Assembly (NCBI RefSeq): GCF_011683955.1
Contig: NZ_JAAQPI010000001.1
Span: 310,001-374,000 of the forward strand
Length of the DNA stretch: 64,000 nt
Reading direction: 5' to 3'
From: Pseudomaricurvus alkylphenolicus
Lineage (GTDB): Bacteria > Pseudomonadota > Gammaproteobacteria > Pseudomonadales > Cellvibrionaceae
In this document: positions 16,026 to 43,434 of the stretch, one piece after another
Layout of the letters: every line of letters starts with the position of its first letter
Position numbering within the stretch: the stretch's first letter is position 1
Made by a program: the position numbers and the translations under genes
The notes under the pieces: model-generated
Told to the model about the DNA's origin: nothing
What the model saw: only the letters and a program-made list of their open reading frames with translations
Database searches by the model: none

Positions 16026-16084
16026 GTATTAACCATCTTGAAAACATTCAGCAGGGACGTTCCCACTCATAATCTGAAAAAAAT

Positions 16085-17245: not shown

Positions 17246-17252
17246 TGCCTAT

Positions 17253-18077: not shown

Positions 18078-18093
18078 TACATCTTCCTCTACA

Positions 18094-18534: not shown

Positions 18535-18970
18535 TTCTCATCACCAGTGTATTGGTTTGCGTTTGGACCAGTTCCCCCGCCTCATTGAAGACTTTGGTTG
18601 TTCTGATCAAAAAGTCCAACGCCCCACCCTTTTTTTCATACATGTCCTCAACTTCGGTGGAGAACGTCAGTCGATCACCGGAATAAATCGGCAGGAAATA
18701 ATCGAACTTTTCTTCTGCGTGTAAAAGTCTACTAAAATCGATACCCAGGTCTTCATTACTGGGGTACTTCGCCGGCGCAAGACTCTTGAGGCAGAACCCG
18801 AATGTCAGGGGCGCTTTAACCCCGCGAAGTCCGGCCTTTTTTGCCGCAGATTCATCAAAATAGATGGGATTTGTTTCGCCTATCGCTTTTGAGAACAGCT
18901 TGATCTGACCAAGTTCAACATCAACGATCCTGTCTTCTGAAACAAGTCCCAGACACGCACGATTAAACAT
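18527..18970 (-). CDS. MaoC N-terminal-like hot-dog protein, non-catalytic half
   Basis: A 147-residue hot-dog domain of the FAS1-like/MaoC N-terminal type. At the hydratase-2 position it has GETNPIYFDE, so the catalytic Asp and His are replaced by Glu32 and Tyr37. It is probably the structural partner that widens the acyl pocket of the 18094 protein, as in two-gene MaoC heterodimers such as HadAB or ChsH1/ChsH2. It is translated from the same operon, 13 bp after the thiolase gene. Confidence 0.82.
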   Translation of the reverse strand: MFNRACLGLVSEDRIVDVELGQIKLFSKAIGETNPIYFDESAAKKAGLRGVKAPLTFGFCLKSLAPAKYPSNEDLGIDFSRLLHAEEKFDYFLPIYSGDRLTFSTEVEDMYEKKGGALDFLIRTTKVFNEAGELVQTQTNTLVMRNG

Positions 18971-18983
18971 CTCTCGCTCCCAT

Positions 18984-20171: not shown

Positions 20172-20223
20172 AAGTAACGTCCTCTAAAATTGTTTCTGAA
20201 GTGATCGGTAGAAGTTCGTCAAA

Positions 20224-21531
20224 CTACAGCAGTGATTGGTATGCTCTTGCCTGAAATTGATCGTACAGATCAGCCAACGGATGGAACTGGTAACAGAATA
20301 CGTGGGTAAAGAATAGTCCGACAAGTTCTTCACTGGGATCCACGAAATAGCTCGTGCCTCCTGCACCGCCCCAGCCAAATTCCCCCACAGATCCCGGCAT
20401 ATGAACGCCTGCCAAAGTACGACGTACCCCAACGCCGAATCCAAACCCATAGCCAGGTACCTTGAATAGATCGACCTCACTATCAGGAATATGGTCCGTT
20501 GTCATGAGCTCTACCGTCTTTCTCCCTAGTAGTTGATTGCCTTTCCATATTCCATTATCCAACATCATCTGAGCATATCTTAGATAGTCACCCGGCGTAG
20601 AAATTATGCCTCCGAATAGCCCGTTCCCGGACATCAGCTTTCGATCAGGGTTAATCGATTTCTCTGAGGTTTCGGGGCGATCCCTGACTACCATATTTCC
20701 ATCCGTATCCCATCCATACTCAGTGGTTAATCGATCCAGCTTTTCCGGATGGCAGTAGAAATCACTGTCCAACATGCCCAGGGGCTCAAGCAATTCCTTT
20801 GAAATCAGTTCGTCAATTGGTGAACCCGTTGCCCGCTCAAGAAGCAGAGTTAGAACATCAAAATCAGCAGAATAGTGCCATCTTCTTCCTGGATGAGATG
20901 CCAAGGGAAGCTGTGAAACCGCTAATACCATTTCTTCATAACTGCGGTCAGGATTGTTTATGGAATCAGACAATAGGTCAGAAGGATGGAACCCCGTACC
21001 ACGCCAAACTTTCTCTAGTGTCGCCTGATGAGATGCGGCCACCATGGGAAAATGCGTGGAGAATCCACTTGACATTGTCAACAAATCTCGAATCGTGATG
21101 TCTCGACACGCGGGGGTTTCCAGCATCTGCGCATAACATCCACGAACATGGTCGGATGGTTCGCTATACTCAATGGAATTAACAATGAGGTTGGAGAATT
21201 CGGGCAAGAATTGTGTTATTGGCATATCCAATAAGATCAGTCCCTTCTCGTACAATCGCATTGTCAGCGCAGCCACAAGAGGTTTTGTTTGAGAGTACAT
21301 TCTAAAGAGACTGTCTAACGCAAGAGGTGACTTGGCTTCCATATCCTTATAGCCCTGTGCTTCTGCATGAACTATTTTCCCCTTGCGCGCGATAACCGTG
21401 ACCGCCCCAGGTATCATCTTGTCATCAATAGCCTTACTGATTAAATTTGAAATGCTACCAAGCTTTGCCGCTGAAATTCCTACTTCTTCCGGATCACAAT
21501 AGGGCAATGGCATATTTTTCATTGTAGTCAC
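20224..21531 (-). CDS. serine hydrolase, class C beta-lactamase fold (EstB-like)
   Basis: A 435-residue protein with the penicillin-binding/beta-lactamase fold. S80-Q-T-K83 is the SxxK nucleophile motif, Y220-S-A matches the YxN position, and GWGGAGGTSY replaces KTG. Loss of KTG and absence of a signal peptide favour an EstB-type esterase or transesterase over a beta-lactamase. The GTG at 21531 has GGAG 7 bases upstream and is preferred. It lies 52 bp upstream of the thiolase gene and downstream of the TonB receptor, suggesting it hydrolyses an imported ester. Confidence 0.83.
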   Translation of the reverse strand: MTTMKNMPLPYCDPEEVGISAAKLGSISNLISKAIDDKMIPGAVTVIARKGKIVHAEAQGYKDMEAKSPLALDSLFRMYSQTKPLVAALTMRLYEKGLILLDMPITQFLPEFSNLIVNSIEYSEPSDHVRGCYAQMLETPACRDITIRDLLTMSSGFSTHFPMVAASHQATLEKVWRGTGFHPSDLLSDSINNPDRSYEEMVLAVSQLPLASHPGRRWHYSADFDVLTLLLERATGSPIDELISKELLEPLGMLDSDFYCHPEKLDRLTTEYGWDTDGNMVVRDRPETSEKSINPDRKLMSGNGLFGGIISTPGDYLRYAQMMLDNGIWKGNQLLGRKTVELMTTDHIPDSEVDLFKVPGYGFGFGVGVRRTLAGVHMPGSVGEFGWGGAGGTSYFVDPSEELVGLFFTHVFCYQFHPLADLYDQFQARAYQSLL

Positions 21532-30103: not shown

Positions 30104-32356
30104 TCAGAACTCATCATAAGCAATCTGCCCTTCCGGCACTGCCAATTCCTCCAACATACCACGGGTTGCCTGCATCATCGCGGGCGGTCCGCACAGGTAG
30201 TACTCCACCGCTTTCGGGTCCGGGTGTGTGTCCAGTATCTGCTCGCGTACCATGTTGTGAATGAACCCTTCAAACGGCGCAGGCTCCTCCCCGTCCAGGG
30301 GCTCAGAGAACGCGTAGTGAAAGCTGAAGTTGGGGTATTTCTTTTCCAGCTCCAAGAAATAGTCCAGATAGAACATCTCCTTGCGTGAACGTGCACCATA
30401 CCAGAAGCTGATCTTGCGATTGCTGCCCTGGGACTCTAGCAGGTTAGAAATGTGTGATCTCATCGGGGCCATACCGGCACCACCGCCTACGTAGATCATC
30501 TCCCGGTCGCTGTCCTTGATGCGGAAGTCACCAAAGGGCCCCCTAGCCGTTACCCTGTCACCAGGTTTAAGACCAAACACATAGGAGGAACCCGCCCCCG
30601 CTTTGCACAATTGTCCCTGCGGCGGCAATGCGATGCGAACGTTGAAACGCAATTGACGGTCACTATCCGGGTTGCTGGCCAGGGAATAGTTACGACGACT
30701 GGCCGCAGCATTGGAGGCTTCTAAACCGAACAGATGGCCTTCTTTCCAGGCATCACTATATTCCTCCCCAACCTCAATATCACCCAGGGTTTTGTCCCGG
30801 TATTCAGGAATGTCCAATTGAATATAGTCGCCGGGCTGGAATTCAAATCCAGGAGAAATCCGTTCGGGCTCCAATACCAGTTCTTTGATAAAAGTCGCCA
30901 CATTATCATTGCTCACCACACGGAAGGCGTGTTCGGTCGAATCGTCCTCTTGACCCGCAGTAGAGATGTCCATATAGAGCACTCCATCGCGCCGCTCAAC
31001 CGCATAGCTGTGCAGATTGACACACACCGGTGCGCGCTGAACCGAGCCGTCGCGTACATCGAAGCGACCGTTATGCTTGGAACATTCGATCAGGTTGCCC
31101 TTGACCAGTCCATCAACCAGATGGGTATTACCGTGGGTACAGATGCCGTCTGTGGCGTAGTAGTTTCCGTCTTCGGTGCAATAAACCGCGAACGTCAATT
31201 CGCCGTGATCGAAACGAATCACATCCTCACGTTGCAGCACGTCAGCATCACAGACTTTGATCCAGCCCTCGGCATCGGCTTGGCCGGAAGACTTGAACAC
31301 ATAGCTGTGTCGCGGCGGTTCGGGCTGTTTGCCCGGCAGCTCCCGCTCTACAAAATAGGTGGGGTCGTCAGACTGACGAATCACCGCCGGAATGATTTCC
31401 TTCCAGGCTTCGGCCAAACCCTTGTAGGGTTTTGGGCAATCGTGCTTCATCAACTCATGCAGGCGCGGCAACGCGTGGTAAGGCACCAGCGGGAACATAT
31501 GGTGTTCAATATGGTAATTCATGTTCCAGTAGAGGTAGCGATTGATTGGGTTCATGTAAATGGTGCGGCTGTTTAGACGGTGATCCGTGACGTCTTCCGC
31601 CAATCCGGCGTGCTGACTCATACCGTAAATAATGCCCAGCCAGGAGCCATACAGCGACGGCAAACCGATATACATCAGTGGCAACCAGCTTTCTGCCGCC
31701 ACCGCCGTCACCACAACAGCCCCGTATATGGCCAGATAGATTCGCGCTTTAAAAAATATCTTTGGCCATTCACTGTCCGGCACAAAGGCCGCTGCGCGCT
31801 CGGATTTTTTGCCCAGCGCGTGCACAATCATGCGCTGGATTTCCGCCCACATGGCTTCTACCTTAAAAAATGCCAGCACCACACTGCGCAAGTTAGCCGG
31901 ACGAGGGACAGCAATTTCCGAGTCCCGCCCGACAATACTGGTATCCGTGTGATGGCGGGTATGGCTCCAGCGCCAGGTGGTGGACTCCCGGAAGATCATA
32001 AAAGAGGCGATTTCATAGAGGACGTTGTTCATCCAGTCGGTCTTAAACGCCGTACCGTGACTGGTTTCATGCCAGCGCGAATCCGACGAGGACGCATAGA
32101 TAACGCCATACAACATAAATGGCAACACGGCCCAGACAGTGCCCCACAATACATAACCTGCCCAGCCCGAGCCCAGCAGCAAAGCAAACCAGATCAGCGT
32201 GTCTCGTATCGCGGGGCCGTCCTTGCGTTCCAGCAGTTTACGCATTTCATCCTTGGCGATGGGTGTCGCATACCAAACCGCATCCGCGAGCCCGTTTTCC
32301 AGTGCCTGCTTACTGGACTCTCCAGTCAGGCTGTAGTCCACCATTGGACGTTCCAT
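30104..32356 (-). CDS. desaturase-Rieske-NAD(P)H reductase fusion (MocDEF-like)
   Basis: A self-contained monooxygenase chain of 750 residues. Residues 1-330 form a membrane fatty-acid-desaturase domain with HETSH (96-100), HTRHH (132-136) and HIEHH (282-286) as diiron ligands. Residues 365-465 are a Rieske ferredoxin domain with C406/H408 and C425/H428. Residues 470-750 are an FNR/NqrF-like reductase with RNYS (555-558), GGGAGMAP (624-631) and CGPPAMM (722-728). In rhizopine catabolism these modules occur as separate MocD, MocE and MocF proteins that oxidatively demethylate a methoxy-inosamine. Here it is last in an operon with a LacI regulator, aldo/keto reductase and esterase. Hydroxylation or O-/N-demethylation of a sugar-like ligand is inferred; lipid desaturation is the alternative. 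Confidence 0.88.
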   Translation of the reverse strand: MERPMVDYSLTGESSKQALENGLADAVWYATPIAKDEMRKLLERKDGPAIRDTLIWFALLLGSGWAGYVLWGTVWAVLPFMLYGVIYASSSDSRWHETSHGTAFKTDWMNNVLYEIASFMIFRESTTWRWSHTRHHTDTSIVGRDSEIAVPRPANLRSVVLAFFKVEAMWAEIQRMIVHALGKKSERAAAFVPDSEWPKIFFKARIYLAIYGAVVVTAVAAESWLPLMYIGLPSLYGSWLGIIYGMSQHAGLAEDVTDHRLNSRTIYMNPINRYLYWNMNYHIEHHMFPLVPYHALPRLHELMKHDCPKPYKGLAEAWKEIIPAVIRQSDDPTYFVERELPGKQPEPPRHSYVFKSSGQADAEGWIKVCDADVLQREDVIRFDHGELTFAVYCTEDGNYYATDGICTHGNTHLVDGLVKGNLIECSKHNGRFDVRDGSVQRAPVCVNLHSYAVERRDGVLYMDISTAGQEDDSTEHAFRVVSNDNVATFIKELVLEPERISPGFEFQPGDYIQLDIPEYRDKTLGDIEVGEEYSDAWKEGHLFGLEASNAAASRRNYSLASNPDSDRQLRFNVRIALPPQGQLCKAGAGSSYVFGLKPGDRVTARGPFGDFRIKDSDREMIYVGGGAGMAPMRSHISNLLESQGSNRKISFWYGARSRKEMFYLDYFLELEKKYPNFSFHYAFSEPLDGEEPAPFEGFIHNMVREQILDTHPDPKAVEYYLCGPPAMMQATRGMLEELAVPEGQIAYDEF

Positions 32357-32368: not shown

Positions 32369-33376
32369 CTAAGATGTTTGACGCTTGCGCCAGTGTTTAT
32401 GCAAAAATTCAATACCGTCGCGCAGCGCGACCCGCCCCATGTCCACCTGCCCGGCCATAGCCACAAAGGCGTGTACCATGCCGTTGTACCTCACTACCCG
32501 GGTGTCGATGTTTTGGTTGTGCAAGGCAAGACCAAAGTGTTCACCCTCGTCACGCAGAATGTCGAACTCCGCGGTCTGGATCAGTGCGGGGGGTAACCCG
32601 GACAAATCGGCACACAACAGCGGTGCGACCAGTGGCTGTGTTCTGTCCTCGACCTCGCCCAGATAATGTTCCCGTGCCCAGACGTAAAACTCCGTTTCAA
32701 AAAAGTAATCGCGGGCGAAGCGGCGATGGCTGTCGGTGGAAAGTTCGCCGGGATTGGTAATGGGGTACATCAACCACTGGGCTGCGATAAGCGGGCCTGG
32801 TTCGTGGCCATGGCGCTGACGACAAAGTAATGTCAGCGCCGCAGCCAGGTTACCCCCGGCGCTGTCGCCGCCCACCGCCAGCCGTGAACCGTCGCCACCG
32901 TAGCGGCCAATGTTTTCCCTCACCCAACTAGTCGCTGCATAGGCGTCTTCGAGCGCGGCCGGAAACGGGTGTTCCGGTGCCAGGCGATAATCCACCGACA
33001 CCACCACACAGTGGCCGTGGCGGGCAATATAGCGACAAAGACTGTCGTGGCTGTCGATGCTGCAAAACACCCAGCAACCGCCGTGCAGGAACAACAGCAC
33101 CGGCAAAGTGGCTTCACTATCGGGTTGATAGATGCGTAAGCGCAGAAGGTCAGCGTCCGGCCCTTTGATATGAACATCCGTGACCTCCTCCAGCGGCTCG
33201 GCCGGGGGATAAAACGGTTGCAAAGCATCGGGGGCGCTGCGCACTGAAGCGGGCGTTTTTTCGGGTGGTGGTTGATCGCTTTGCTGCGCGCTGGATGCCA
33301 CCTGGGCCAGTACCTCTTTGACCTGGTGATCAAGTTCACCGGCCCAGCCCTTTTGTTCCACATTGAATCGGCTCAT
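32369..33376 (-). CDS. HSL-family alpha/beta-hydrolase 2
   Basis: Carboxylesterase of about 335 residues from ATG 33376. HGGCWVF is the oxyanion motif (a Cys replaces one Gly of HGGGW), VDYRLAPEHPFPA follows, and the nucleophile is in GDSAGGN. FDILRDEGE and GMVHAF supply Asp and His. The upstream in-frame extension to 33490 lies inside the aldo/keto reductase gene and is rejected. The start codon is 13 bp after that gene's stop, and the desaturase fusion begins 12 bp after this gene, so all three are co-transcribed. It may deacylate the substrate of the monooxygenase. Confidence 0.88.
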   Translation of the reverse strand: MSRFNVEQKGWAGELDHQVKEVLAQVASSAQQSDQPPPEKTPASVRSAPDALQPFYPPAEPLEEVTDVHIKGPDADLLRLRIYQPDSEATLPVLLFLHGGCWVFCSIDSHDSLCRYIARHGHCVVVSVDYRLAPEHPFPAALEDAYAATSWVRENIGRYGGDGSRLAVGGDSAGGNLAAALTLLCRQRHGHEPGPLIAAQWLMYPITNPGELSTDSHRRFARDYFFETEFYVWAREHYLGEVEDRTQPLVAPLLCADLSGLPPALIQTAEFDILRDEGEHFGLALHNQNIDTRVVRYNGMVHAFVAMAGQVDMGRVALRDGIEFLHKHWRKRQTS

Positions 33377-33389
33377 AGCGTTGGCTGCC

Positions 33390-34376
33390 TCAGCGAGGGA
33401 AGTACTTGCGCTCGTAGAGGTTAAGCAACCAACGATGGTGACGGCGAATGTCATCAAACACCTGCTGCGGCAAGGCACCCTTGTCGGCAATGGCGATGTT
33501 CTCCATCGCCTGTTCGGTCACGTGCATACTGATGGTGGCAGTGGTGACCCCCGGGTGACTCAGGACATAGCGAATCGCCAGTTCGGTCAAGGATTCGGCG
33601 TACTCAGGGATATAAGCACGCAAGGCCTCGACGCGACGCAAATATTCAGGCAGGGGTCCGGAGGAAAAATAGCCATCACGAAAATCACTTGATTCAAATT
33701 GGGTATCCGGGGTCAGCAATCCAGTCAATCCGCCTTCATCCAATACACAACGGGCGATCACCGCGACACCCTGCTGCCGGCAAATGGGAATCAAACTGTC
33801 AAACGCCAGCGGATCGAAGATATTGATAATGGTTTGCACGCTGTCTACCAGACCGGAACGCACAATAGCGATGGCCTGATCATGGCGATGGTCCGGAATG
33901 GAAACACCGATATGACGGATTTTCCCCTGTTTTTTCAGGGTTAGCAGCTCTTCCAGCCAGTATTCGTTTTCATACTGAGCCCAATACTGATGCAGTTGCA
34001 TCAGGTCGATGCAATCGATATCCAGCGCTTGCAATGAGGCTTCGACACTCTGAGTGACACTGCCCTTTGGATAGGCGATCTCCATGGGATTGGGAATGCC
34101 CCAGCCGCTGTTGGGACCGGATTCATCAGGACTGACCTTGGTGGCGATGAAGGGGCGCTCCCCCTGCCACTGTTTCAAAAAGCGCCCCACAATACGTTCG
34201 GAGTCACCATAAATACGAGCGGTGTCGATCATATTGATGCCACGGTCAGCACATTGGTTCATGCCGTCGATCAAGGTATTTTCATCAAAACTGCCAAAGG
34301 CGAAGTTAAGCCCCATAGCGCCAAAACAGAGTCGGGAAACCTGTCTTCCCGTGGATCCAAAATTCGTGGTTTGCAT
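33390..34376 (-). CDS. aldo/keto reductase
   Basis: NAD(P)-dependent aldo/keto reductase of 328 residues from ATG 34376. The catalytic Asp and Tyr are in MIDTARIYG; the strand with IDLMQLHQY carries the usual His. The C-terminal cofactor region has GVTTATISM. GGGAGAG lies 5-6 bases before the ATG at 34376, which decides the start. It belongs to the DUF4432-LacI-AKR-hydrolase-fusion operon and probably reduces or oxidises a sugar or polyol carbonyl of the same pathway. Confidence 0.9.
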   Translation of the reverse strand: MQTTNFGSTGRQVSRLCFGAMGLNFAFGSFDENTLIDGMNQCADRGINMIDTARIYGDSERIVGRFLKQWQGERPFIATKVSPDESGPNSGWGIPNPMEIAYPKGSVTQSVEASLQALDIDCIDLMQLHQYWAQYENEYWLEELLTLKKQGKIRHIGVSIPDHRHDQAIAIVRSGLVDSVQTIINIFDPLAFDSLIPICRQQGVAVIARCVLDEGGLTGLLTPDTQFESSDFRDGYFSSGPLPEYLRRVEALRAYIPEYAESLTELAIRYVLSHPGVTTATISMHVTEQAMENIAIADKGALPQQVFDDIRRHHRWLLNLYERKYFPR

Positions 34377-34394
34377 GGTTTTCTCTCCCAAGAA

Positions 34395-35417
34395 CTAATA
34401 CGTATTTTCAGACATAAAGATTTCCACCTTGGGCATCTGGATGCCCTGATTCACGGGCCGACCCTCGTTGTGGTTCAGCAACATTTCCACGACGGCGTAG
34501 ATTTCCTGGCGAATATCCTGATTGATAATGGCGTCCACCCAGCCCTCCAGCATCAGTTTGCGGGTGGAGGCGTTGAGTTCGTGCGCAATAAACACCACTT
34601 TTTTTCCGCCCTCCTTTTCCTGCAACGCGCGGGAGATACCGGAGGTGCCACCACCGATGTTGTAAATGCCCAACAGATGCGGGTGAGCACTCAGCAATTC
34701 TGAAGCAATAAGGTAGCTGCGCTCGTCGTCATCGAGCACTTCGGGGCGTTCCACAATCGTCAGTTGCCCGAAGCGTTCGCGAATCATGCTTTTGAAACCC
34801 GCCTCCCGTTCTTCGTGGCCACGGTAACGATGGCTGCCCAAAAACACCGCAACTTCGCCGTGCTCGGGGCGACCAAGAAAACGGCCAGTCAGCAGGCCGG
34901 CGGTGCGGCCGGCCGCTCGATTGTCGATGCCCACATAGGCCAGTCGCTCGGAGTAGGAGACGTCCGAGATCAGGCTGATGACGCCCAGGTCGCGTGCGCG
35001 CAGTGTTTTTACCGCCGCCCGCACCAGAGGGTGATCGAGCGCAACAAAAGCGATGCCATCGCTCTCCTCCCCTACCTCGATCAGCTTGTCCGCCAGCGCC
35101 TGAGGGTCGAAGCCCGGTACCGTATGCACGTGCACATCCGCTTGCATCAGGGCAAAGATGTTTTCGGATGTTTGAATTTCCTTTGAAAAGTATTCGAAAT
35201 AACGGGTGCGGGCGATTGGTAACACAAAGTCAAAACGGTAGCTGTTTCCCTGGCCCTGTTGGCTGGATACCTCATTCAGGTTTCGGGTACTGCGCATGGC
35301 GCCGAGTACTCGTTCGACGGTTTCGCCGCGCACACGCCCGCGCTGGTTAATGACCCGATCTACGGTGGCGCGACTGACACCGGCCTTGCGCGCGACTTCG
35401 TCAATAGTGACTTTCAT
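34395..35417 (-). CDS. LacI-family regulator 1
   Basis: A 340-residue LacI/GalR regulator with an N-terminal HTH (IDEVARKAGVSRATVDRVIN) and a periplasmic-binding-protein-like sensor with GVISLISDVSYSERLAYVGIDN and GRTAG. The HTH has TVDRVINQRG rather than the common TVSRVLN, as in LacI 2 at 36814, its clear paralog. AGAGAGGTAA precedes the ATG. It is embedded as the second gene of the operon that starts at 36658; the TGATGyATT palindromes at that promoter and at 49.9-50.6 kb are its best candidate operators (inference). Confidence 0.9.
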   Translation of the reverse strand: MKVTIDEVARKAGVSRATVDRVINQRGRVRGETVERVLGAMRSTRNLNEVSSQQGQGNSYRFDFVLPIARTRYFEYFSKEIQTSENIFALMQADVHVHTVPGFDPQALADKLIEVGEESDGIAFVALDHPLVRAAVKTLRARDLGVISLISDVSYSERLAYVGIDNRAAGRTAGLLTGRFLGRPEHGEVAVFLGSHRYRGHEEREAGFKSMIRERFGQLTIVERPEVLDDDERSYLIASELLSAHPHLLGIYNIGGGTSGISRALQEKEGGKKVVFIAHELNASTRKLMLEGWVDAIINQDIRQEIYAVVEMLLNHNEGRPVNQGIQMPKVEIFMSENTY

Positions 35418-35464: not shown

Positions 35465-36658
35465 TCAGCGCCAGCGGCCGCTTGGCGTGACAAATTCACT
35501 GGCCAGTGGCTTGGCAATATTCTCCACCTGCTGCTCGAATACCTTTATCTCGTTGCTGCCATCCAGCACCGAAAAACGGGTTTCGTAGTCCCGCCTGTCA
35601 CCATGTTCCAACCACTGCAGTTGTTGCCGCTCTCTGGCAAACTGGCGACCCAGCACGTGATTGGTGCTGGGCTCTATACCAAAGGCGTATAACCCCGACT
35701 GCAGGCATTGCCACTGGTAGAGGCTGGGGAACATGTCGTGCTGATACTCCACCGCAAAACCCAGACCCGGATCACCGCCGCGCCCGCTATCGAAACCATC
35801 GTTAACCAGCGCCACCGGTACACGCCCCTGGGCGTCAGCGGCTACTTGATGCTCATAAACCTGTTCTTCGAACGGGTGTTGAGGCGCCGCCTGTGTGCGA
35901 TAGCCCACCCGTTGCGCTGTTGGTTCGTGAGCGGTCCAAAGGCAATCCGTCACCGGCGCCAGATAGCGACTGCCTTCGTCCAGCACCGGGTACCCGAGGT
36001 TGATGTGGTACATAAACATATGAGGCGTGGGGGAAAAGCCGAGGTTGTCGACCCGATCGTGGAGGGTAAACGAACTCTCACCCACCCGGGCTTCAATACG
36101 TCTCACCAAACGCAGATTTTCGCCAAACACTGCGGCCTGCCGAACCTCGCCTTGGCACCAGAGAATCAGCTCGTCTTCGCCATCCGGCCCCTTGCGTTCC
36201 TCCAGGCCAAAACCACCAAGCGTGGCCGGTATAAAACCAGCACGCCCATGTAGCGGCATGTTTATGCGGTCGCGGTGGGGGTAGTTGAAATGCCGGGCAT
36301 CTTCATCACCGGCCCCCAGAATATGATCCAGGCCGCAGGTCATCAGCAAGCCGGAGAAAGAGCGCATCACACCGAAGCCATTTTCGGATTCCGGCTCGTT
36401 AAAACTCGGATGCCGAAAACCGGTTGGCGAATGCCAGCCCAGGGAAGCGCCGCGATGGTTGGCGTCACCGATATCCATGCCTCGGTCCAACAGCACCGTA
36501 AAACTGAAACCGGTGCCGGTGCGAAACTCCAGGCAGCGCACTCCTTGTTCAGCGCCTGCCTCAAGGGTAAAGGGCCGAACACCGGCAAACTGGGCGAGAC
36601 TGCCGGTACGAGCCCGCAGCTGCTTTAGAGAAAGGTCTTTACCGTAGAGCTGAACCAC
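35465..36658 (-). CDS. DUF4432 aldose-1-epimerase-like protein
   Basis: A 397-residue galactose-mutarotase-like beta-sandwich protein of the DUF4432 type. Features are a conserved FTVLLDRGMDIGDA segment near the N-terminus, LHGRAGFIPA near the middle and MYHINLGYPVLD with a candidate His. Members are thought to mutarotate or epimerise sugars or sugar acids. The start is GTG at 36658 with only a weak ribosome site. It is first in the operon that ends with the desaturase fusion; 47 bp separate it from LacI 1. The exact sugar is unknown. Confidence 0.8.
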   Translation of the reverse strand: MVQLYGKDLSLKQLRARTGSLAQFAGVRPFTLEAGAEQGVRCLEFRTGTGFSFTVLLDRGMDIGDANHRGASLGWHSPTGFRHPSFNEPESENGFGVMRSFSGLLMTCGLDHILGAGDEDARHFNYPHRDRINMPLHGRAGFIPATLGGFGLEERKGPDGEDELILWCQGEVRQAAVFGENLRLVRRIEARVGESSFTLHDRVDNLGFSPTPHMFMYHINLGYPVLDEGSRYLAPVTDCLWTAHEPTAQRVGYRTQAAPQHPFEEQVYEHQVAADAQGRVPVALVNDGFDSGRGGDPGLGFAVEYQHDMFPSLYQWQCLQSGLYAFGIEPSTNHVLGRQFARERQQLQWLEHGDRRDYETRFSVLDGSNEIKVFEQQVENIAKPLASEFVTPSGRWR

Positions 36659-36702
36659 AACTGCATCTCAACTTAACATCATTCATAGAGCCATGATGCA
36701 GC

Positions 36703-36748
36703 AAAATGATGTATTTATCAATATTAAACATCATTAATACATCATTTT
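36703..36748. promoter_or_regulatory. operator candidate of the DUF4432/LacI 1 operon
   Basis: AAAATGATGTATT at 36703-36715 and AATACATCATTTT at 36736-36748 are perfect 13-bp inverted repeats with a 20-bp spacer. They lie 45-90 bp upstream of the GTG at 36658. The string TACATCATTTTGAGTCA at 36738-36754 recurs almost exactly at 50543-50559. Confidence 0.65.
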
Positions 36749-36763
36749 GAGTCATTTTGAGGC

Positions 36764-36813: not shown

Positions 36814-37836
36814 CTAATAGATGTTCTCAGACAGGTATATCTCAACCTTGGGCTGTTGCACCCCCAGCATCAGCTCATCGCCAAGTTTGTAGTTCAGCAG
36901 AATATCCACGGCGCTGTACACTTCCTGCTTGATGTCCTGGTTGATCACGGCATCCAGAGTGCCGTTGACCAGCAGGCGGCGGGTGGCGTCATTGAGCTCA
37001 TGGGCGACAAAGACGATATCGTCCTGATGACCACTCTCCTCCAGCGCCTGGGCGATACCCAAGGTGCCGCCGCCAACGTTGTAGATGCAGGCCAGATCCT
37101 TTTCTTCCGCCAACAGTTCCCGTGCATGCTCCAGGCTCTTGGCGTCATCATCCAGCACTTCGGGCATTTCCAGCACCCGAAAACGGGGAAAGCGCTCGCG
37201 AATCATGCTCTTAAAGCCGGCTTCCCGTTCCTCGTGGCCGCGGTAGCTGTGGCTGCCCACAAACACGGCGACCTTTTTGCGCTCAGAAGCGGTAAGAAAA
37301 CGCCCCATCAACAATCCGGCGGTGCGCCCGGCGGAGCGATTATCGATACCGACATAGGCCAGGCGCTCCTGAGAGGAGATATCCGATACCAGACTGATGA
37401 CGCCGATGCCCTGGTCACTGAGGTTGCGGACGGCATCCCGGACAATCGGGTGATCCAGGGCCACAAACGCAATGCCGTCGGTGTTTTCGCCCACCTCCAG
37501 CAGTTTGTCGGCCAGTACCTGCGGATCAAAACCCACCACTGTGTGCACGCGTACTTCGGCCTTCATGCTGGCGAAAATCTTGCCGAAGTTCTTGATCTCT
37601 TCGGCAAAGGTTTCAAAGTACTTGGTTTTGGCGACCGGGAAGACAAAATCGAAGATGTAGCTGCTGGGGGGCTTTTCGGTGTCTTCCGGCTCGATCAGGT
37701 AGCGGGTGCTGTAAAGCGCGCGAAAGACTCGATCAACCGTGGCTTCCTTGACGTTGCCCCGCTTGTTCAGCACCCGGTCTACGGTGGCACGGCTGACGCC
37801 CGCTTCCTTGGCTACATCGTCTAAAGTGATCTTCAT
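36814..37836 (-). CDS. LacI-family regulator 2
   Basis: A 340-residue LacI/GalR regulator, paralogous to the one at 34395. HTH LDDVAKEAGVSRATVDRVLN at residues 4-23 and effector domain with RLAYVGIDNRSAGRTAG. ATG 37836 gives the canonical MKITLDDV start; the upstream extension to 37878 is rejected. It follows the MocA pair in transcription order with a 54-bp gap containing TGAGGC-TTT-GCCTCA. The same palindrome type stands before the second MocA pair at 55077, so this protein probably represses both dehydrogenase pairs and itself (inference). Confidence 0.9.
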   Translation of the reverse strand: MKITLDDVAKEAGVSRATVDRVLNKRGNVKEATVDRVFRALYSTRYLIEPEDTEKPPSSYIFDFVFPVAKTKYFETFAEEIKNFGKIFASMKAEVRVHTVVGFDPQVLADKLLEVGENTDGIAFVALDHPIVRDAVRNLSDQGIGVISLVSDISSQERLAYVGIDNRSAGRTAGLLMGRFLTASERKKVAVFVGSHSYRGHEEREAGFKSMIRERFPRFRVLEMPEVLDDDAKSLEHARELLAEEKDLACIYNVGGGTLGIAQALEESGHQDDIVFVAHELNDATRRLLVNGTLDAVINQDIKQEVYSAVDILLNYKLGDELMLGVQQPKVEIYLSENIY

Positions 37837-37878
37837 ATTTTCGCCCGGCTGATGATGTCCTTGCCGGAATTCTAGCAT

Positions 37879-37893
37879 TGAGGCTTTGCCTCA
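37879..37893. promoter_or_regulatory. TGAGGC/GCCTCA palindrome, LacI 2 operator candidate
   Basis: TGAGGC-TTT-GCCTCA, a 15-bp palindrome overlapping the stop codon of the MocA-type gene and 43 bp upstream of the LacI 2 ATG. A 17-bp version, TGAGGTAATTTGCCTCA, occurs at 54924-54940. Confidence 0.55.
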
Positions 37894-39012
37894 GTCACCC
37901 GCTCCATTATGAGGCACAAAACGGGTACTCACCTCAGCGGGATCAACTGGTCGGCCGGTGGCCGCGGATTCCAGGGCGGCAAAGCACAGTGCCAGGCCCT
38001 TTAGACTGGATTCGGCGCTTGCCAGCGGCGCGCGCTGATCTTCGATGGCACACAGCAGGTCGGCCATACTGCCCTTCAACGCGCCGGGAAACCAGTCGGA
38101 ATCCACCGCGACCGAACCGGTGCCCTGATCATTAACCACCTCTACCCGCTCGCCACCCAGTGAGGTTCCCGCAAAATGGATGCGCCCCCGGGAGCCGACA
38201 ACCTCAAAGCCACTGGTATCGGTGTAGCGGCTGCTGGCACGCAGGTTAATGGTGGCCTGCACCGAGCCGAAGTCAATCAGCACCGACACCAGCGTCGGCG
38301 CCTTAACCAGCTGACCGTCCCGCGAGCCGGTGATGGCGTATACGCTGCGAACCTTGCGATCGGCAAACAGGAAGGCGATCAGATCAAACCAGTGGATGGC
38401 GAAATCATAGAGAATCAGGTCGGGGTCCTGCCCCAGGACATGATCGCAGAAGATTTCGTCATGCCCCCAGTAGACGGTAAAGTCGGCCGCGCAGAGCTCA
38501 CCAATCTGATCCTGCGACACCAGTTTACGCAGCGCCCGAAAGTGACCGGCCCAACGCCCATTCTGGTTAACCGCCAGAGTAACACCCTGCTGCTCGGCCA
38601 GACGCGCCAACTCGACACCCTGCTCCAGGTTTTCCACAAAGGGTTTTTGGCTGAGCACATGTTTGCCCGCCAACAGTGCCCGCCGCACATAATCCGGTCG
38701 AATATTCAGGTGCAGGGCGAGGTCCACGACGGTCACTTTTGGATCCTTCAACACACTGTCATAGTCAGTGGTAACAGCAGCCTGGGGAAAAAATTCATCC
38801 CGCGCCGCCTCGGCAGAGGCCAGCGTGGCACTGCACAACACCACCACATTCCAACCAGCGTCGCGATAGGCCTGCAGTTGGGTTTTTCCGATCGCACCAC
38901 AGCCCACCAACGCAATACGGTGATCTTGTGAACGCGGCATAGGCAAAGGTTCAACCCGTAAATCCAGAAGCTTGCCTTCACTCTTGGACTGCTCACCATA
39001 GGGGTTGCTCAT
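37891..39012 (-). CDS. Gfo/Idh/MocA dehydrogenase, pair A gene 2
   Basis: NAD(P)-dependent sugar or polyol dehydrogenase of 373 residues. The Rossmann motif is VGCGAIGKTQ near residue 36, the catalytic Lys lies in SQKPF (Gln in place of the usual Glu of EKP), and the C-terminal alpha/beta domain contains DFAIHWFDL with the typical His. It overlaps the upstream dehydrogenase gene by 4 bp (ATGA), so the two are translationally coupled. A close homolog is at 56175. In the 3-keto-glycoside context it could oxidise or reduce a C3 position of a sugar; direct inositol-type oxidation is the alternative. Confidence 0.9.
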   Translation of the reverse strand: MSNPYGEQSKSEGKLLDLRVEPLPMPRSQDHRIALVGCGAIGKTQLQAYRDAGWNVVVLCSATLASAEAARDEFFPQAAVTTDYDSVLKDPKVTVVDLALHLNIRPDYVRRALLAGKHVLSQKPFVENLEQGVELARLAEQQGVTLAVNQNGRWAGHFRALRKLVSQDQIGELCAADFTVYWGHDEIFCDHVLGQDPDLILYDFAIHWFDLIAFLFADRKVRSVYAITGSRDGQLVKAPTLVSVLIDFGSVQATINLRASSRYTDTSGFEVVGSRGRIHFAGTSLGGERVEVVNDQGTGSVAVDSDWFPGALKGSMADLLCAIEDQRAPLASAESSLKGLALCFAALESAATGRPVDPAEVSTRFVPHNGAGD

Positions 39013-40097
39013 GATGGATCTCCCTCATTATTTGCAACAGCAATCGGTCGCCGCTCTCTGGCGCTGTGGGCGGCGGCATCAACAATGCGCTGCCCTCCCA
39101 GGGAAATATTCGATCCGCAGGGTCCCTGCAGATCACCGCCCTCTGCCAGTACCTGTTCCAGCAGGGCAAAGACATCTTCACAGTGGCTGAAATCATCTAC
39201 AGGAACATCCCGTACTTCTGGCTGTTCACGGGTCTGCAGGCTGACGCTCTGCGCATAGTCACGGCTGCAGATGGTGCCCTCGGTGCCCACAATCACAAAT
39301 CCACAAAACGGCTGCGGCTGGGTCACCCAGGGATCGGTGAAGGTTCCCCAGCGGGTTTGCAGCGTAGAGAGGCCGCTGTGATAGCGGGCCACGACCACGC
39401 TTTGCAGATCCACCTCAAAGCCGTCGGGCACATGAGATACCGCCTGCACTTCAGTGGGCAGTTCACCATCACGAAACCAGGTCGCCAGGGTGGCGCCGTA
39501 ACCCAGGTAGTCAAGCAACGAACCGCCGCCGGCGTCGGCCTTGAACCACCAGCTGTCCTGGATATTCACTGGCTCTTCCACTTCTTTTTTGGCGTGAAGG
39601 TGGTATTGAGGACCGCGATTGCCATCGTAGTAATGCACCTCGATCACCTCGCCGATGGCGCCGTCATCAATCAGCCGTTTGCTGGTGCGATGGGAAGCGT
39701 ACCAGGCCAGAGGCCAATTAATGGCCAACTGTACCCCGCCAGCACGTGCCGCTTCGATGGCTCGCTCAGCATCGGTGGTGGAAACCGCAAAGGGTTTCTC
39801 CAGCAGAATATGTACACCCCGCTCCGCCAGACGTTCACTCCAGAGGGCGTGCTCAGCGGTGGGAGAACAGACGATGGCCAGGTCCGGCTGTGTGTCTTCC
39901 AGCAGCGTGCTCCAGTCATCGTATCGCAGGGCGGGGTCAACACCGATATCGTCACACACCTCGTTCATGCGCTCGACCCGGGTGTCGTACACCCCCACCA
40001 CTTGGTAGGCCGGCGACTTCATGGCCAACGCCAACTGATCGCCAATGTGCATATGATCGAAGCAGAGCCCAACCACTTTCAGTCTGGATGTATTCAT
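39009..40097 (-). CDS. Gfo/Idh/MocA-like dehydrogenase, pair A gene 1
   Basis: A 362-residue member of the family. LLEKPFAV carries the EKP Lys and AGGGSLLDYLGYG the C-terminal domain motif with WFRDG. The N-terminal nucleotide loop is unusual: GLCFDHMHIGD replaces GxGxxG, and the same string is kept in the homolog at 55077. Strong conservation of FDHMH suggests a functional reason, such as metal or substrate binding or altered cofactor handling. Genes 1 and 2 always occur together in this window, so their products may form a heteromer or act in sequence. Confidence 0.87.
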   Translation of the reverse strand: MNTSRLKVVGLCFDHMHIGDQLALAMKSPAYQVVGVYDTRVERMNEVCDDIGVDPALRYDDWSTLLEDTQPDLAIVCSPTAEHALWSERLAERGVHILLEKPFAVSTTDAERAIEAARAGGVQLAINWPLAWYASHRTSKRLIDDGAIGEVIEVHYYDGNRGPQYHLHAKKEVEEPVNIQDSWWFKADAGGGSLLDYLGYGATLATWFRDGELPTEVQAVSHVPDGFEVDLQSVVVARYHSGLSTLQTRWGTFTDPWVTQPQPFCGFVIVGTEGTICSRDYAQSVSLQTREQPEVRDVPVDDFSHCEDVFALLEQVLAEGGDLQGPCGSNISLGGQRIVDAAAHSARERRPIAVANNEGDPS

Positions 40098-40109: not shown

Positions 40110-40811
40110 TTAAAGTTCGCGAATTCGGATATTGCGATACCACACGGGATCGCCATGATTTTGCAATACGATATGCCCCTCGGGCTGGCGGCCAAAGCCG
40201 GGCAGTTTGTTGAATTTACTGCGTTCCAGACGTTGACGCCAGTCAGCAGAGTCCAGGTTATAGGCGACAATGCGGTGACCGTTAAGCCAGTGTTCCACAC
40301 GATTACCGAGAACGACAATGCGAGTGCTGTTGTACTCCCCCGCGGCTTTTACCACCGCTGTATTGGGTGCATAGAGATCGAATACCGAACCTGCCAGCCA
40401 GTGGGGCTTGTCCGCGGCACGGGGATAGTTGGCATCATCCAGCAATTGATACTCCATGCCGGTTTTCCAGGCCAAATCGCGATCGTCGGCTACCCGATAG
40501 AGGATCCCACTGTTGCCACCTTTGTCGAGCTTCCATTCCAGGTAGAGCTCAAAGTCGGTGTATTTCTGCTCGGTCATGATGTCGCCCGCGCTGCGCTGGT
40601 CAGTCACCAGCGCCAGCGTACCGTCTTGCGCCGCCCACACATTTTTCAGCGACTTGCCTTCCATGGCCTGCCAGCCATTGAGGGTGCGACCGTCAAACAA
40701 TGGCTGCCATTTGCTGCTGACAGGGTTTTGAGCGGATGAGAGACAGGCACTTAACAGCCCGCTCATAATGACCAATAAAAGGATTTTCAGACGTTTGCTT
40801 GTTAACAACAT
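40110..40811 (-). CDS. DUF1080 (3-keto-disaccharide hydrolase) lipoprotein
   Basis: A 233-residue predicted lipoprotein. The signal ends with the lipobox LSAC, Cys at 23, followed by one DUF1080 domain. Typical motifs are LFDGRTLNGW, GNSGILYR, EYQLLDD and the end block GHIVLQNHGDPVWYRNIRI. DUF1080 proteins are concanavalin-like folds; some cleave 3-keto-glycosides after C3 oxidation. It is placed directly between the GMC/subunit-3 oxidase genes and the MocA pair, as expected for a periplasmic 3-keto-glycoside lyase or hydrolase. The activity is inferred from family and context. Confidence 0.87.
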   Translation of the reverse strand: MLLTSKRLKILLLVIMSGLLSACLSSAQNPVSSKWQPLFDGRTLNGWQAMEGKSLKNVWAAQDGTLALVTDQRSAGDIMTEQKYTDFELYLEWKLDKGGNSGILYRVADDRDLAWKTGMEYQLLDDANYPRAADKPHWLAGSVFDLYAPNTAVVKAAGEYNSTRIVVLGNRVEHWLNGHRIVAYNLDSADWRQRLERSKFNKLPGFGRQPEGHIVLQNHGDPVWYRNIRIREL

Positions 40812-40817
40812 AAATCT

Positions 40818-41519
40818 TTACACCTGTTGCTGTGGCAGACCCATACCGGTCAGCACCTGGTTAATATGATCAAGCGCTTCGGGACTCGCGCCGGGATAAT
40901 CGCCGGCGATCGGCTGGTTGCCAACAAAGTTCAGATCCCGAATGCCCTCCTCGGTGGTATAGAAAGCCCCGAGCGCCAACCAACGCAGGCGGGCAAAGAA
41001 TCTGGTCTGGGGCTGCAACCTGTGCGCGACTTTATCGGCGTAGGCGATGGTGTCGAGAATAGACGCGGCCTCTCCCCTATCCAGATCAACAAAAGAGCGC
41101 TGAAATTGATCCAGCGCCTGCTGCTCCAGCCACAACAATCCCTCCAGTACAATTTCCCGGTCCTGTTGCTGCTGCGGATAAGGCGCACTGACCCACTCGT
41201 CAATAAAGTCGGGCACTCCCACGTCGCTGGCCGCCGGCGAGTGCTCGTCCCGGGGCAGAATCAGGTCGCATACCCTGGCAGTAATTTGCATCTGTGCCTT
41301 GCTCATCGTTTTTGACCAGGGCACCAGCGGGTGAATCATGCTGGCGTCCTGACCATAACCTCCGCCGCTGATCGCCTTGGCCACGCCCAGATCGGCGCGG
41401 CGTGATGTCGGTGTCACGGCCGGTGTACATCCATAGGTCATCAGAGATGCACCCATCACCGAGGCCATCCATTTTAACGTGGTGCGGCGATTTACCTTGG
41501 GCTGATACCTGTCGCTCAT
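40818..41519 (-). CDS. gluconate 2-dehydrogenase subunit 3-like, Tat-exported
   Basis: A 233-residue small subunit of a GMC-type dehydrogenase. The N-terminus has a twin-arginine motif NRRTTLKW followed by a hydrophobic stretch and TYGC, a weak lipobox. The body has ICDLILPRDEHSPAASDVGVPDFIDEW-type features (landmark LILPRDEHSPAA), characteristic of the subunit-3 family. It would carry the signal-less GMC partner across the membrane by the Tat pathway. The 4-bp overlap with the GMC gene supports a complex. The usual cytochrome c third subunit is not encoded nearby. Confidence 0.88.
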   Translation of the reverse strand: MSDRYQPKVNRRTTLKWMASVMGASLMTYGCTPAVTPTSRRADLGVAKAISGGGYGQDASMIHPLVPWSKTMSKAQMQITARVCDLILPRDEHSPAASDVGVPDFIDEWVSAPYPQQQQDREIVLEGLLWLEQQALDQFQRSFVDLDRGEAASILDTIAYADKVAHRLQPQTRFFARLRWLALGAFYTTEEGIRDLNFVGNQPIAGDYPGASPEALDHINQVLTGMGLPQQQV

Positions 41520-43204
41520 AGCTCCCCCTTGCTCAACTGCTGCGCGAGATACTCAGAGTTTCTCATGGCCAGCATCAGGATGGTCAGTGTCGGATTCTTG
41601 TGGGCCTCGGAGGCGAACACCGAACCGTCCATCAAAAACAGATTGTCCGCATCCCAACACTGACCGTACTGGTTAGTAACCGACAGCGTCGGGTCATCAC
41701 CCATGCGCGCCGTGCCCACTTCGTGAATGCAGGTACCGCCCGGCGACAGAAAATCGTCTTCTTCGGGCAGGGTTACGATTTGCCCCTGTAAACGCTCTAC
41801 CAGAGTGAGAATGGTCTGACGCATATGACGGGCCTGGCGTTGTTCCTGGTCCGACCACTTCCAGTGATACTTGAGTACCGGAATGCCCCACCGATCTTTG
41901 ACGTTGGGATCGATTTCGCAGTAGCAATCGTCCGAGGGAATCATCTCGCCTTGGGCGATAAACGTCATGGTACTGCCAAACTGCGAGCGCACTTGTTGCT
42001 TCAGGTCGCGACCGTAACCGTCGGCCAAATCCGCTACACCCCCCAACCCCATACCGGGAGGTTGACGACCTCCAAAAAAGATCAACTGGTACCCGCGTTG
42101 AAAATCCAGTTCGCCGCGAGCCTGCTCCTGATACAACCACCAGGGAATGTGTAAGTGAGCCGACGCCGCACCAAATTCGTCGTAGTTGGGGCGACCGTCC
42201 AGCGCCGGGAAATAGGCCACCACCGGTTTGGACTGAGGATTGTCGAGCAGGTTGCGTCCCACCTGCCCACTGGTGTTTGCCAGACCATCAGGGTGATTTT
42301 CAGAGGTGGAATTGAGCATCAGGCGCGCGGTTTCGCAGGCACTGGCTGCCAGCACCACCACACGCGCGTGCACCTGGTGATGTGTATTGGTGGCTTGATC
42401 AATAAACTCGACGCCGTTGGGCCTGCCGCTACTGTCGGTTAACACCTCGCGCACCATGGCGCCGGTTTTGATGTTCAGCTTGCCGGTTTTTTTCGCCATG
42501 GGCAGCAGTGACGTGGTGGTCTGAAAGGCAGCACCGATGGAACAACCGCGCATACAATGGGTGGCGTAAAAACAAGCGGCGCGATCATCCAGTGGGCGGG
42601 TCAATACAGCGCGATTAACCGGTACGCAGGGAATGCCCAGCTCGTCACAGGCCGCTTTCATAAACAACTCATAAGCCCGTGGCGCGGGTGCCGGCTGGAT
42701 GGCATCAGGGGCGGAATCCGGGTGATTTTCCAAGCCGTCGTTGCGACCGTAAACGCCGATCAGTCGCTCGGTTTTATCGTACCAGTCAGCGATGTCTTCG
42801 TAGGCAAAGGGCCAGTCCACCCCCAGGCCATCTCGGCTTTTGGGTTTGAAGTCGTAGGGCCCGTAGCGGGGAGACCAGCGCGCCCAATGATTGGTGCGGC
42901 CTCCCAGCATGCGGGTACGAAACCAGTTGAATTGCTCGCCGTCGGCGTGAGTATAGGGCTGGCCCTCGATCTCCCAACCGCCGTTGTGAGTGGCCATATA
43001 GTAGCCCTTGGGGCGATCCGGCGTTGCGGCGCCACGCAGGGGGGCGTCGCGTTCCATCTGGAACATGGGGGTTTCACTGGCGGGATCGTAGTCGCGCCCC
43101 GCCTCCAGCATCAACACCCGGTAGCCGGCGTGGGTGAGCATATAGGCGCTCATGGCACCGCCGGCGCCCGAACCCACAACAATCACATCGTAGTTACTCT
43201 TCAT
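41516..43204 (-). CDS. GMC-family oxidoreductase (sugar/glycoside dehydrogenase)
   Basis: FAD-dependent GMC oxidoreductase of 562 residues. The dinucleotide motif is VGSGAGGAMSAYML at 11-24, the acidic E36 follows in LMLEAGRD, and the substrate domain contains the NHWARW flavin-contact region. The C-terminal block has GTARMGDD and a final NPTLTILMLAMRNSEY segment (landmark PTLTILMLAMR). It lacks its own signal peptide. With the Tat-bearing subunit 3 it resembles glucoside 3-dehydrogenase and related membrane or periplasmic sugar dehydrogenases, which oxidise a ring hydroxyl to a ketone. Co-location with DUF1080 fits a 3-keto-glycoside route. Confidence 0.9.
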   Translation of the reverse strand: MKSNYDVIVVGSGAGGAMSAYMLTHAGYRVLMLEAGRDYDPASETPMFQMERDAPLRGAATPDRPKGYYMATHNGGWEIEGQPYTHADGEQFNWFRTRMLGGRTNHWARWSPRYGPYDFKPKSRDGLGVDWPFAYEDIADWYDKTERLIGVYGRNDGLENHPDSAPDAIQPAPAPRAYELFMKAACDELGIPCVPVNRAVLTRPLDDRAACFYATHCMRGCSIGAAFQTTTSLLPMAKKTGKLNIKTGAMVREVLTDSSGRPNGVEFIDQATNTHHQVHARVVVLAASACETARLMLNSTSENHPDGLANTSGQVGRNLLDNPQSKPVVAYFPALDGRPNYDEFGAASAHLHIPWWLYQEQARGELDFQRGYQLIFFGGRQPPGMGLGGVADLADGYGRDLKQQVRSQFGSTMTFIAQGEMIPSDDCYCEIDPNVKDRWGIPVLKYHWKWSDQEQRQARHMRQTILTLVERLQGQIVTLPEEDDFLSPGGTCIHEVGTARMGDDPTLSVTNQYGQCWDADNLFLMDGSVFASEAHKNPTLTILMLAMRNSEYLAQQLSKGEL

Positions 43205-43300
43205 GCATTATATCCCGGGGATTTTGTCCCCCTGTTGTTATCAATATAGTCCTTGTCCGTTGTTCAATTGTTGCTATTCGCGTGTTAGTCGAGCCTAGCG

Positions 43301-43426
43301 TCGGATTACGGCTTCGCCTAATCCGACCTACGTAAAAATCGGCTCTTGGGGATTCCGAATACCGGTTACGTGAAGATCGGCTTCCGAAGACCCGTAGGTT
43401 GGATTAGGCGAAGCCGTAATCCGACA
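43301..43426. repeat. REP/MITE-like inverted-repeat element
   Basis: Two 33-base arms at 43301-43333 and 43394-43426 are inverted copies with one mismatch. Each arm is itself a hairpin (GTCGGATTA ... TAATCCGAC around GGCTTCGCC). The core GTCGGATTACGGCTTCGCC is a widespread bacterial extragenic repeat type. The 60-bp centre includes imperfect GGCTCTTGG/CCGAATACCGG-like sequence. It lies between the TRAP permease stop and the GMC start, so a folded transcript could attenuate read-through. Confidence 0.85.
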
Positions 43427-43434
43427 ATCAGCAA

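Follow-up and report, generated by a model that had tools for sequence, protein, structure and literature searches.

A single-chain MocD-Rieske-NqrF-type protein in a sugar locus of Pseudomaricurvus alkylphenolicus, a putative O-demethylase of methylated sugars

Introduction

What does a membrane diiron desaturase do when it is joined in one chain to a Rieske domain and a flavin reductase and is encoded among sugar genes? The question is raised by a gene of Pseudomaricurvus alkylphenolicus (Cellvibrionaceae) that lies in a stretch of 64,000 nucleotides (nt), hereafter the window (contig NZ_JAAQPI010000001.1, positions 310,001 to 374,000). A sequence-only reading of the window had matched the three modules of the encoded protein to MocD, MocE and MocF of rhizopine catabolism, and had suggested oxidative removal of a methyl group from a methylated sugar or inositol derivative rather than lipid desaturation. 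Methylated sugars are constituents of polysaccharides from algae, plants and microorganisms. Here we describe the architecture, spread, kinship and gene neighbourhood of the fused protein. On balance, our analysis favours a self-sufficient monooxygenase that would use NADH and O2 to remove the O-methyl group of a methylated reducing sugar.

Results

Three redox domains in one polypeptide

The architecture of the fused protein is solid. An open reading frame (ORF) of 750 amino acids (aa) runs on the minus strand from an ATG at 32356 to exactly 30104, and Pfam and NCBIfam models divide it into three parts, which bears out the earlier claim of a single desaturase-Rieske-reductase chain. From the N- to the C-terminus these are a desaturase (Pfam FA_desaturase, residues 75–312, 2.7e-37), a Rieske domain (residues 365–451, 6.7e-16) and an FAD/NADH reductase, with FAD_binding_6 at residues 549–612 and NAD_binding_1 at residues 623–732. 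Against the NCBIfam MocE-family model TIGR02377, the Rieske part scored 124.1 bits, below the cut-off of 136.15. The predicted structure has a mean predicted local distance difference test score of 84.1 and a predicted template modelling score of 0.61; at these values, the arrangement of the domains in the model was kept out of the evidence.

Spread and conservation of the fused form

Relatives were collected from a species-level genome collection with residues 1–470 only, the reductase being excluded from the query. The search reported 365 relatives, and all counts over 80 loci given here refer to the best 80 of them. One intact ORF spanning the three domains, matched from residue 20 or earlier to residue 745 or later, was found at 76 of the 80 loci (identity 53.3–61.1%, length 752–888 aa). 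Two of the exceptions are split over two ORFs (L029 and L088) and two are without the reductase (L020 and L089). Because 76 of 80 relatives found without the reductase in the query still carry it, the fusion is not a matter of chance. The intact fusions come from eight phyla: Verrucomicrobiota (34), Acidobacteriota (15), Chloroflexota (10), Bacteroidota (7), Planctomycetota (6), and Pseudomonadota, Lentisphaerota and Kiritimatiellota (1 each), with one fusion unassigned. Within the organism's own family, 7 of 144 genomes gave a match, five of them at fused length (the window genome, G091, G096, G127 and G129); the five other genomes listed as the same genus had no match.

We then aligned 30 fusions (25 from the 80 loci, the four family relatives and the window protein). 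Invariant in all 30 are the diiron-type motif positions H96, H100, H132, H135, H136, Q248, H249, H282, H285 and H286, of which all but Q248 and H249 are the eight desaturase-type box histidines, as well as C406, H408, C425 and H428 of the Rieske domain and G624–626 and C722 of the reductase (positions checked). From family knowledge we take these positions to be metal- or NADH-binding. Such conservation is absent from the two linkers, in which 0 of 21 and 0 of 12 positions are invariant.

Two shorter proteins were seen beside these. At L014 (1474–2898), a MocD-like and a Rieske domain form one 475-aa protein without a reductase domain, possibly an intermediate form. The MocD-MocE protein without reductase at L089 (5531–7756) is extended at its N-terminus by about 270 aa; the extension is without a Pfam match and may be a start-site artefact.

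Kinship to MocD and MocE

A tblastn search with residues 1–470 against 72,556 plasmids matched 433 records, 270 of which had one place covering at least 80% of the query; Rhizobium (160) and Sinorhizobium (105) were the commonest genera. The best rhizobial matches showed 50–56% identity over 93–98% of the 470 aa, with lower listed rows at 47% and below, and, where annotated, they spanned two genes, one for a desaturase and one for a MocE-family protein. The rhizobial mocD and mocE are adjacent yet separate genes; among the matches listed, the desaturase is mostly annotated as a fatty acid desaturase. The desaturase domain is 53–55% identical to six rhizobial MocD proteins, and the Rieske part 52–55% identical to MocE at the four loci with a called ORF. 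Eight loci were opened. In all six annotated rhizobial ones a separate reductase gene follows mocD and mocE, and one further rhizobial locus had no annotation. In a marine alphaproteobacterium (36% identity), genes for a Rieske protein and a desaturase are present, with no reductase of that kind adjoining them.

A maximum-likelihood tree was built from 73 desaturase domains: 31 fusions, 6 rhizobial MocD, 5 proteins at about 40% identity and 31 other desaturase-family rows. The fusions, the rhizobial MocD and L014 form one group of 38 (support 98/89), in which the window protein joins the four family relatives (97/93). The 31 other rows lie beyond a branch with support 99/90. Of these, 29 were obtained by searching 56 genomes of the class with PF00487, and the organism's own genome supplied the remaining 2; 22 are the longest ORF over the locus middle, none is named, and several have long branches. 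The tree weakly suggests a single origin of the fusion (support 69/88). An acyl-lipid desaturase with built-in electron transfer would account for the FA_desaturase match and the histidine boxes. We regard it as very improbable, given that the domain groups with MocD and apart from the 31 other rows (none identified by name), with no nesting in acyl-lipid desaturases, and that LacI and sugar genes surround the fusion.

An NqrF-type reductase half

The reductase departs from the rhizobial scheme. Residues 478–750 match the NCBIfam model of NqrF, subunit F of the Na+-translocating NADH:quinone reductase (TIGR01941, 302.9 bits, cut-off 295), over profile positions 132–403 of 405. Profile positions 1–131 have no match in the fusion, and the Rieske domain stands there instead. 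The N-terminal part of NqrF comprises an anchor and a 2Fe-2S ferredoxin. By sequence, the closest solved chains are also NqrF (PDB 7qty, 1.8e-70), and a Foldseek search of the predicted model against the PDB reached a template modelling score of up to 0.95 of the target for NqrF FAD domains; all 50 listed matches were of the reductase type and are uninformative on the desaturase domain. A separate relative of the reductase is encoded by a 416-aa open frame on contig C66 (48% identity over residues 479–750). The one rhizobial MocF scanned (L101) consists of Pyr_redox_2 and Reductase_C, i.e., another reductase class. The proposed match of the modules to MocD, MocE and MocF is therefore borne out by close homology for the first two, at 50–56% identity and with the Rieske part below the cut-off of the MocE-family model, and fails for the third.

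We found no paper on this combination of MocD, MocE and NqrF parts in the open-access literature searched.

Sugar genes beside the fusion

From 197 neighbours of the fusion on its own strand we took 99 (68 loci; almost all of them immediately adjacent) and compared them with 99 of 159 genes more than 4.5 kb away on either strand (54 loci), both samples being hand-picked from related loci. The adjacent genes included AP_endonuc_2 (16), Aldose_epim (15), URO-D (6), Sugar_tr (4), MFS_1 (4) and RhaT (3). Among the distant genes, URO-D occurred three times, and AP_endonuc_2 and Aldose_epim, which fell outside the 25 families listed (a list extending to families with a single member), at most once each. 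One-sided Fisher tests, rough since the loci are related, gave 7.7e-5 for AP_endonuc_2, 1.6e-4 for Aldose_epim and 0.25 for URO-D. Neighbours of the fusion are therefore enriched for aldose epimerases and xylose-isomerase-like barrels. By tblastn, a relative of the aldose epimerase was found at 20 of the 80 loci (16 Verrucomicrobiota, 4 Acidobacteriota) and one of the TIM barrel at 18 (9 in each of these phyla).

Closer to the window, the fusion of each of the four family relatives has a gene of the aldose-epimerase type as its immediate neighbour on the opposite strand. Three of the encoded proteins match Pfam Aldose_epim; the fourth (L141), for which the scan covered NCBIfam only, matches galM models below their cut-offs and is 46% identical to the L138 protein. 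L138 also encodes a rhamnulose-1-phosphate aldolase/dehydrogenase (1148 bits) and an L-rhamnose isomerase (718 bits, cut-off 646.75), together with an FGGY kinase, GH92 and GH38. The isomerase and aldolase of L139 are 94% identical to those of L138 and its kinase 80%, while no rhamnose isomerase, aldolase or kinase was present in the 20 kb taken at L140 and L141. A rhamnose isomerase is also encoded in the window genome, on a contig other than that of the window (689.3 bits against a cut-off of 646.75). Rhamnose was considered as the substrate; its genes accompany two of the four family relatives, but the isomerase occurs at none of the 80 wider loci and an aldolase-type protein at two, so that rhamnose remains one candidate among several.

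Corrinoid methyl transfer was likewise considered as a companion function and set aside. URO-D-like genes lie at 13 and corrinoid genes at 5 of the 80 loci, and with URO-D at 6 of 99 adjacent versus 3 of 99 distant genes, these genes were left uncounted in weighing the chemistry.

In the window itself, the neighbour of mutarotase type is a DUF4432 protein, whose plasmid relatives carry an aldose 1-epimerase family annotation. In Gemmobacter, a DUF4432 gene overlaps a stand-alone MocD homologue that is 52% identical to the window protein. A general DUF4432-MocD pairing was rejected: of 536 plasmid records, 1 showed the pair. The test used detects only pairs that are close together on the same strand (reach half the query length plus 500 bases) and may well miss a spacing of 3.1 kb such as that in the window. 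Searching phages with the LacI-DUF4432 DNA gave no match. As a separate observation, DUF4432 clusters at L150, L151, L152 and L154 contain SDR genes, with Gfo/Idh and sugar isomerase genes in three of the four. Each of the four has coenzyme A (CoA) transferase genes within it or close by, and three have enoyl-CoA hydratase genes, as if for a sugar pathway with CoA-type genes.

Regulators and an inositol-type substrate

Two LacI genes lie upstream of the fusion (Table 1). A 21-mer precedes both the DUF4432 gene and an MFS symporter gene, and its first copy overlaps an inverted repeat. By shuffles, 0.01 copies are expected in the window, for a pattern that was written after both sites had been seen. 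Exact copies of its 17-base core occur in the 8.88 Mb genome at the two window sites only; allowing two mismatches added one further genome site, and a reversed control pattern likewise gave one. These sites suggest a putative operator and one LacI-type regulon across the locus.

The regulators also bear on the main rival explanation, in which an O-methyl cyclitol (rhizopine, pinitol, ononitol or similar) is demethylated, as is thought for MocDEF, and the sugar genes are incidental. Close kinship to MocD and MocE speaks for it, as do the mocDEF genes of Rhizobium sp. Q54, which lie near genes for a rhizopine-binding protein, inositol 2-dehydrogenase and 5-dehydro-2-deoxygluconokinase, and IolG matches of the window Gfo/Idh genes, weak and far below the cut-off. 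In the window genome, the LacI protein next to R. etli mocDEF matched the two LacI genes of the window best (5e-49 and 1e-46; next 3e-7), and PMC3538637 links that regulator group and its TIM-barrel partners to an inositol derivative. On the other hand, the mocDEF regulators are only about 31–35% identical to the window LacI genes. The reverse search, with the window LacI against plasmids, matched 868 records and did not single out mocDEF: none of the opened loci among the 40 listed relatives (40–43% identity) was a mocDEF locus, and 16 of the 40 had a DUF4432 match within 10 kb. A conserved LacI-mocDEF regulator pair was rejected on that result. In addition, no IolE above the cut-off was found in the window genome (best 28.7 bits, cut-off 290), and aldose-epimerase-type genes recur beside the fusion. 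Weighing these points, we consider a cyclitol substrate rather unlikely, and prefer a methylated reducing sugar.

One-carbon genes

A formyltetrahydrofolate-deformylase-type gene is the second gene after mocDEF in Rhizobium indicum (L103, 12593–13477), and another adjoins the fusion of an unrelated bacterium (L062, 2437–3303). These two genes, together with kinship to MocD, which is proposed to act on a methyl ether, argue against a second rival, in which a C-H bond other than those of an O-methyl group is oxidised in a sugar or sugar-like compound (hydroxylation, ring oxidation). That rival would fit the varied chemistry of the desaturase superfamily, including the arginine hydroxylase GntB, whose model matches the domain weakly (29.6 bits, cut-off 380), and the O-methylated substrate is itself a proposed one. 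We hold it to be unlikely, more so than the cyclitol. The window genome encodes an S-formylglutathione hydrolase (430 bits, cut-off 281.7), which is consistent with release of formaldehyde from a methylated sugar.

Apart from these, a ketopantoate-hydroxymethyltransferase-type gene follows mocDEF in five of the six annotated rhizobial loci (L101, L102, L103, L104 and L107; checked by Pfam in L101, 11670–12479, only), Rhizobium sp. Q54 being the exception. Ketopantoate hydroxymethyltransferases use methylene-tetrahydrofolate, and the enzyme may handle the released one-carbon unit.

Genes of the window

Domain scans of the window recovered all the proposed operon mates, LacI, aldo/keto reductase, DUF4432 protein and esterase, and the nearby MocA-type dehydrogenases (Table 1). 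In the same-direction run from DUF4432 through LacI, aldo/keto reductase and esterase to the fusion, successive genes are separated by 47 nt, by 3 nt, by an overlap and by 12 nt, with starts assigned mechanically. The scans, which covered part of the window ORFs, gave no match of the MocR or MocB type. Further up lie genes for TRAP transporter parts, an HpcH/HpaI aldolase and a TonB receptor, and, beside the Gfo/Idh genes, a 3-keto-disaccharide hydrolase, a gluconate-2-dehydrogenase subunit 3 and a GMC oxidoreductase (40110–43204), which together look like a glycoside 3-oxidation module.

Table 1 Features of the window around the fused gene
Feature	Coordinates	Strand	Basis or remark
Single-chain MocD-MocE-NqrF-type monooxygenase (putative), 750 aa	30104–32356	-	ORF, Pfam/NCBIfam domains, alignment
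NqrF-type FAD/NADH reductase	30107–30925	-	Residues 478–750; without NqrF N-terminal part
Rieske (MocE-like) domain	31004–31264	-	Residues 365–451; C406, H408, C425, H428
Membrane diiron desaturase-type (MocD) domain	31421–32134	-	Pfam residues 75–312; motifs HETSH, HTRHH, HIEHH
HSL-type esterase	32369–33490	-	Stop 12 nt before fusion start
Aldo/keto reductase	33390–34391	-	Domain match
LacI regulator with Peripla_BP_4 ligand domain	34395–35417	-	Domain match
DUF4432 protein	35465–36658	-	First gene of run ending with fusion; relatives annotated aldose 1-epimerase family
Inverted repeat, 17-nt arms, 94% complementary, 14 nt apart	36702–36749		Upstream of DUF4432; candidate LacI operator
21-mer, first copy	36734–36754	+	Upstream of DUF4432; shared with 50539–50559
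Second LacI regulator	36814–37878	-	61% identity to first LacI
Gfo/Idh/MocA-type dehydrogenase	37891–39012	-	Domain match
Gfo/Idh/MocA-type dehydrogenase	39009–40097	-	Domain match
21-mer, second copy	50539–50559	+	Upstream of MFS symporter gene 50595–51821 (+)

Several other features of the window were recorded. Two inverted copies of a GTCGGATTA..GCC..TAATCC element at 43200–43440 resemble, by eye, repetitive extragenic palindromic elements. A histidinol-dehydrogenase-type gene stands within a sugar cluster (51865–53142), with an antisense 432-aa ORF on the same stretch that has no Pfam match. A block at 5077–21531 holds acyl-CoA dehydrogenases, AMP ligases, a CoA transferase, a thiolase and beta-lactamase-type genes at 46–52% GC; GC climbs to 52–59% from about 26 kb of the window.

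Discussion

The domain make-up, the conserved ligand positions, the kinship to MocD, MocE and NqrF and the sugar-gene neighbourhood are the observations on which our proposal builds. A function of the MocDEF kind, exerted on a methylated sugar, seems likely, and the protein would be located in the membrane. Established domain chemistry implies an order from NADH through FAD, Rieske cluster and diiron site to O2. NADH would reduce the FAD of the C-terminal NqrF-type domain, and the mid-chain Rieske cluster would pass the electrons on to the N-terminal MocD-type domain, where the diiron site would activate O2. The methyl group of an O-methylated reducing monosaccharide would be hydroxylated, and the resulting hemiacetal would fall apart, releasing formaldehyde and the demethylated sugar. 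The sugar may then be processed by the aldo/keto reductase, the dehydrogenases and a neighbour of mutarotase type, which is DUF4432 in the window and aldose 1-epimerase at other loci; formaldehyde may enter the glutathione route. Aldose-epimerase-type enzymes act on reducing sugars; because such a mutarotase-type partner recurs, the substrate is probably a reducing sugar rather than inositol. The suggestion of methyl removal from a sugar or inositol derivative has accordingly kept its sugar side, through the neighbours here and elsewhere, while its inositol side is weakened by the IolE result and the recurring epimerases; lipid desaturation gains nothing from the tree, and the O-demethylation itself we infer.

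Several points weigh against this proposal. The neighbour samples differ in strand rule and were hand-picked from related loci. As the epimerase and TIM-barrel neighbours were found by tblastn only in two phyla, the evidence for a sugar link does not extend to every phylum. Relatives of the window's DUF4432 protein, esterase and LacI lie near only 0, 1 and 1 of the 80 wider fusions, respectively, so the window operon is not the common one. Neither the rhamnose isomerase nor the DUF4432-MocD pairing proved general, as described above, and the window ORFs that were scanned include no gene for formaldehyde handling. The O-demethylation step is taken over from the rhizopine MocDEF model, and the chemistry proposed for MocDEF reportedly goes back to the Bahar 1998 model. 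Passages of five papers list mocDEF among rhizopine catabolism genes (PMC10107442, PMC5789663, PMC5132102, PMC3538637 and PMC6668481), and those passages contain no enzyme assay of MocDEF and no demonstration of demethylation. The passages available of PMC12857756 mention neither rhizopine nor mocD, and open-access literature searches aimed at pinitol and at methylated sugars listed nothing on their demethylation by bacteria.

With the whole electron chain in a single gene, direct expression and assay would test the chemistry proposed for MocDEF and, if the proposal is true, would assign a function to a family spanning eight phyla. More tentatively, and with rather less confidence than in the enzyme itself, one can picture a widespread family of one-chain NADH-dependent diiron O-demethylases that gives Verrucomicrobiota, Acidobacteriota, Chloroflexota and others an aerobic entry route for O-methylated monosaccharides, born when a MocD-MocE pair took the flavin half of NqrF in exchange for the NqrF ferredoxin.

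Among known systems, the nearest in proposed task is the P450 6-O-methyl-D-galactose demethylase of porphyran degraders, which, according to PMC10033563, removes a sugar O-methyl group oxidatively as formaldehyde. The fusion would do the same job, whereas the P450, the sole oxidative sugar O-demethylase found in our open-access literature search and a system for one sugar, depends on separate redox partners and belongs to an unrelated protein family. With NqrF the fusion shares its C-terminal 273 residues (the 302.9-bit match), and differs in that a MocD domain and a Rieske domain replace the N-terminal part. MocD-MocE-MocF of rhizopine catabolism (Sinorhizobium meliloti L5-30, Rhizobium leguminosarum) resembles it in the MocD-type desaturase and the MocE-type Rieske protein, at about 50–56% identity, and in the LacI gene that adjoins the MocD gene in several rhizobia, as near the fusion; this comparison rests on rhizobial MocD homologue loci, not on the original L5-30 locus. 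It differs in having three chains instead of one and a Pyr_redox_2/Reductase_C reductase instead of the NqrF type, and the fusion in turn has aldose-epimerase-type genes beside it and a genome without IolE above the cut-off. AlkB-rubredoxin and P450-reductase fusions are self-sufficient fused oxygenases; like them, the protein described here carries an oxygenase and its donors in one chain, but the oxygenase and the donors are different ones.

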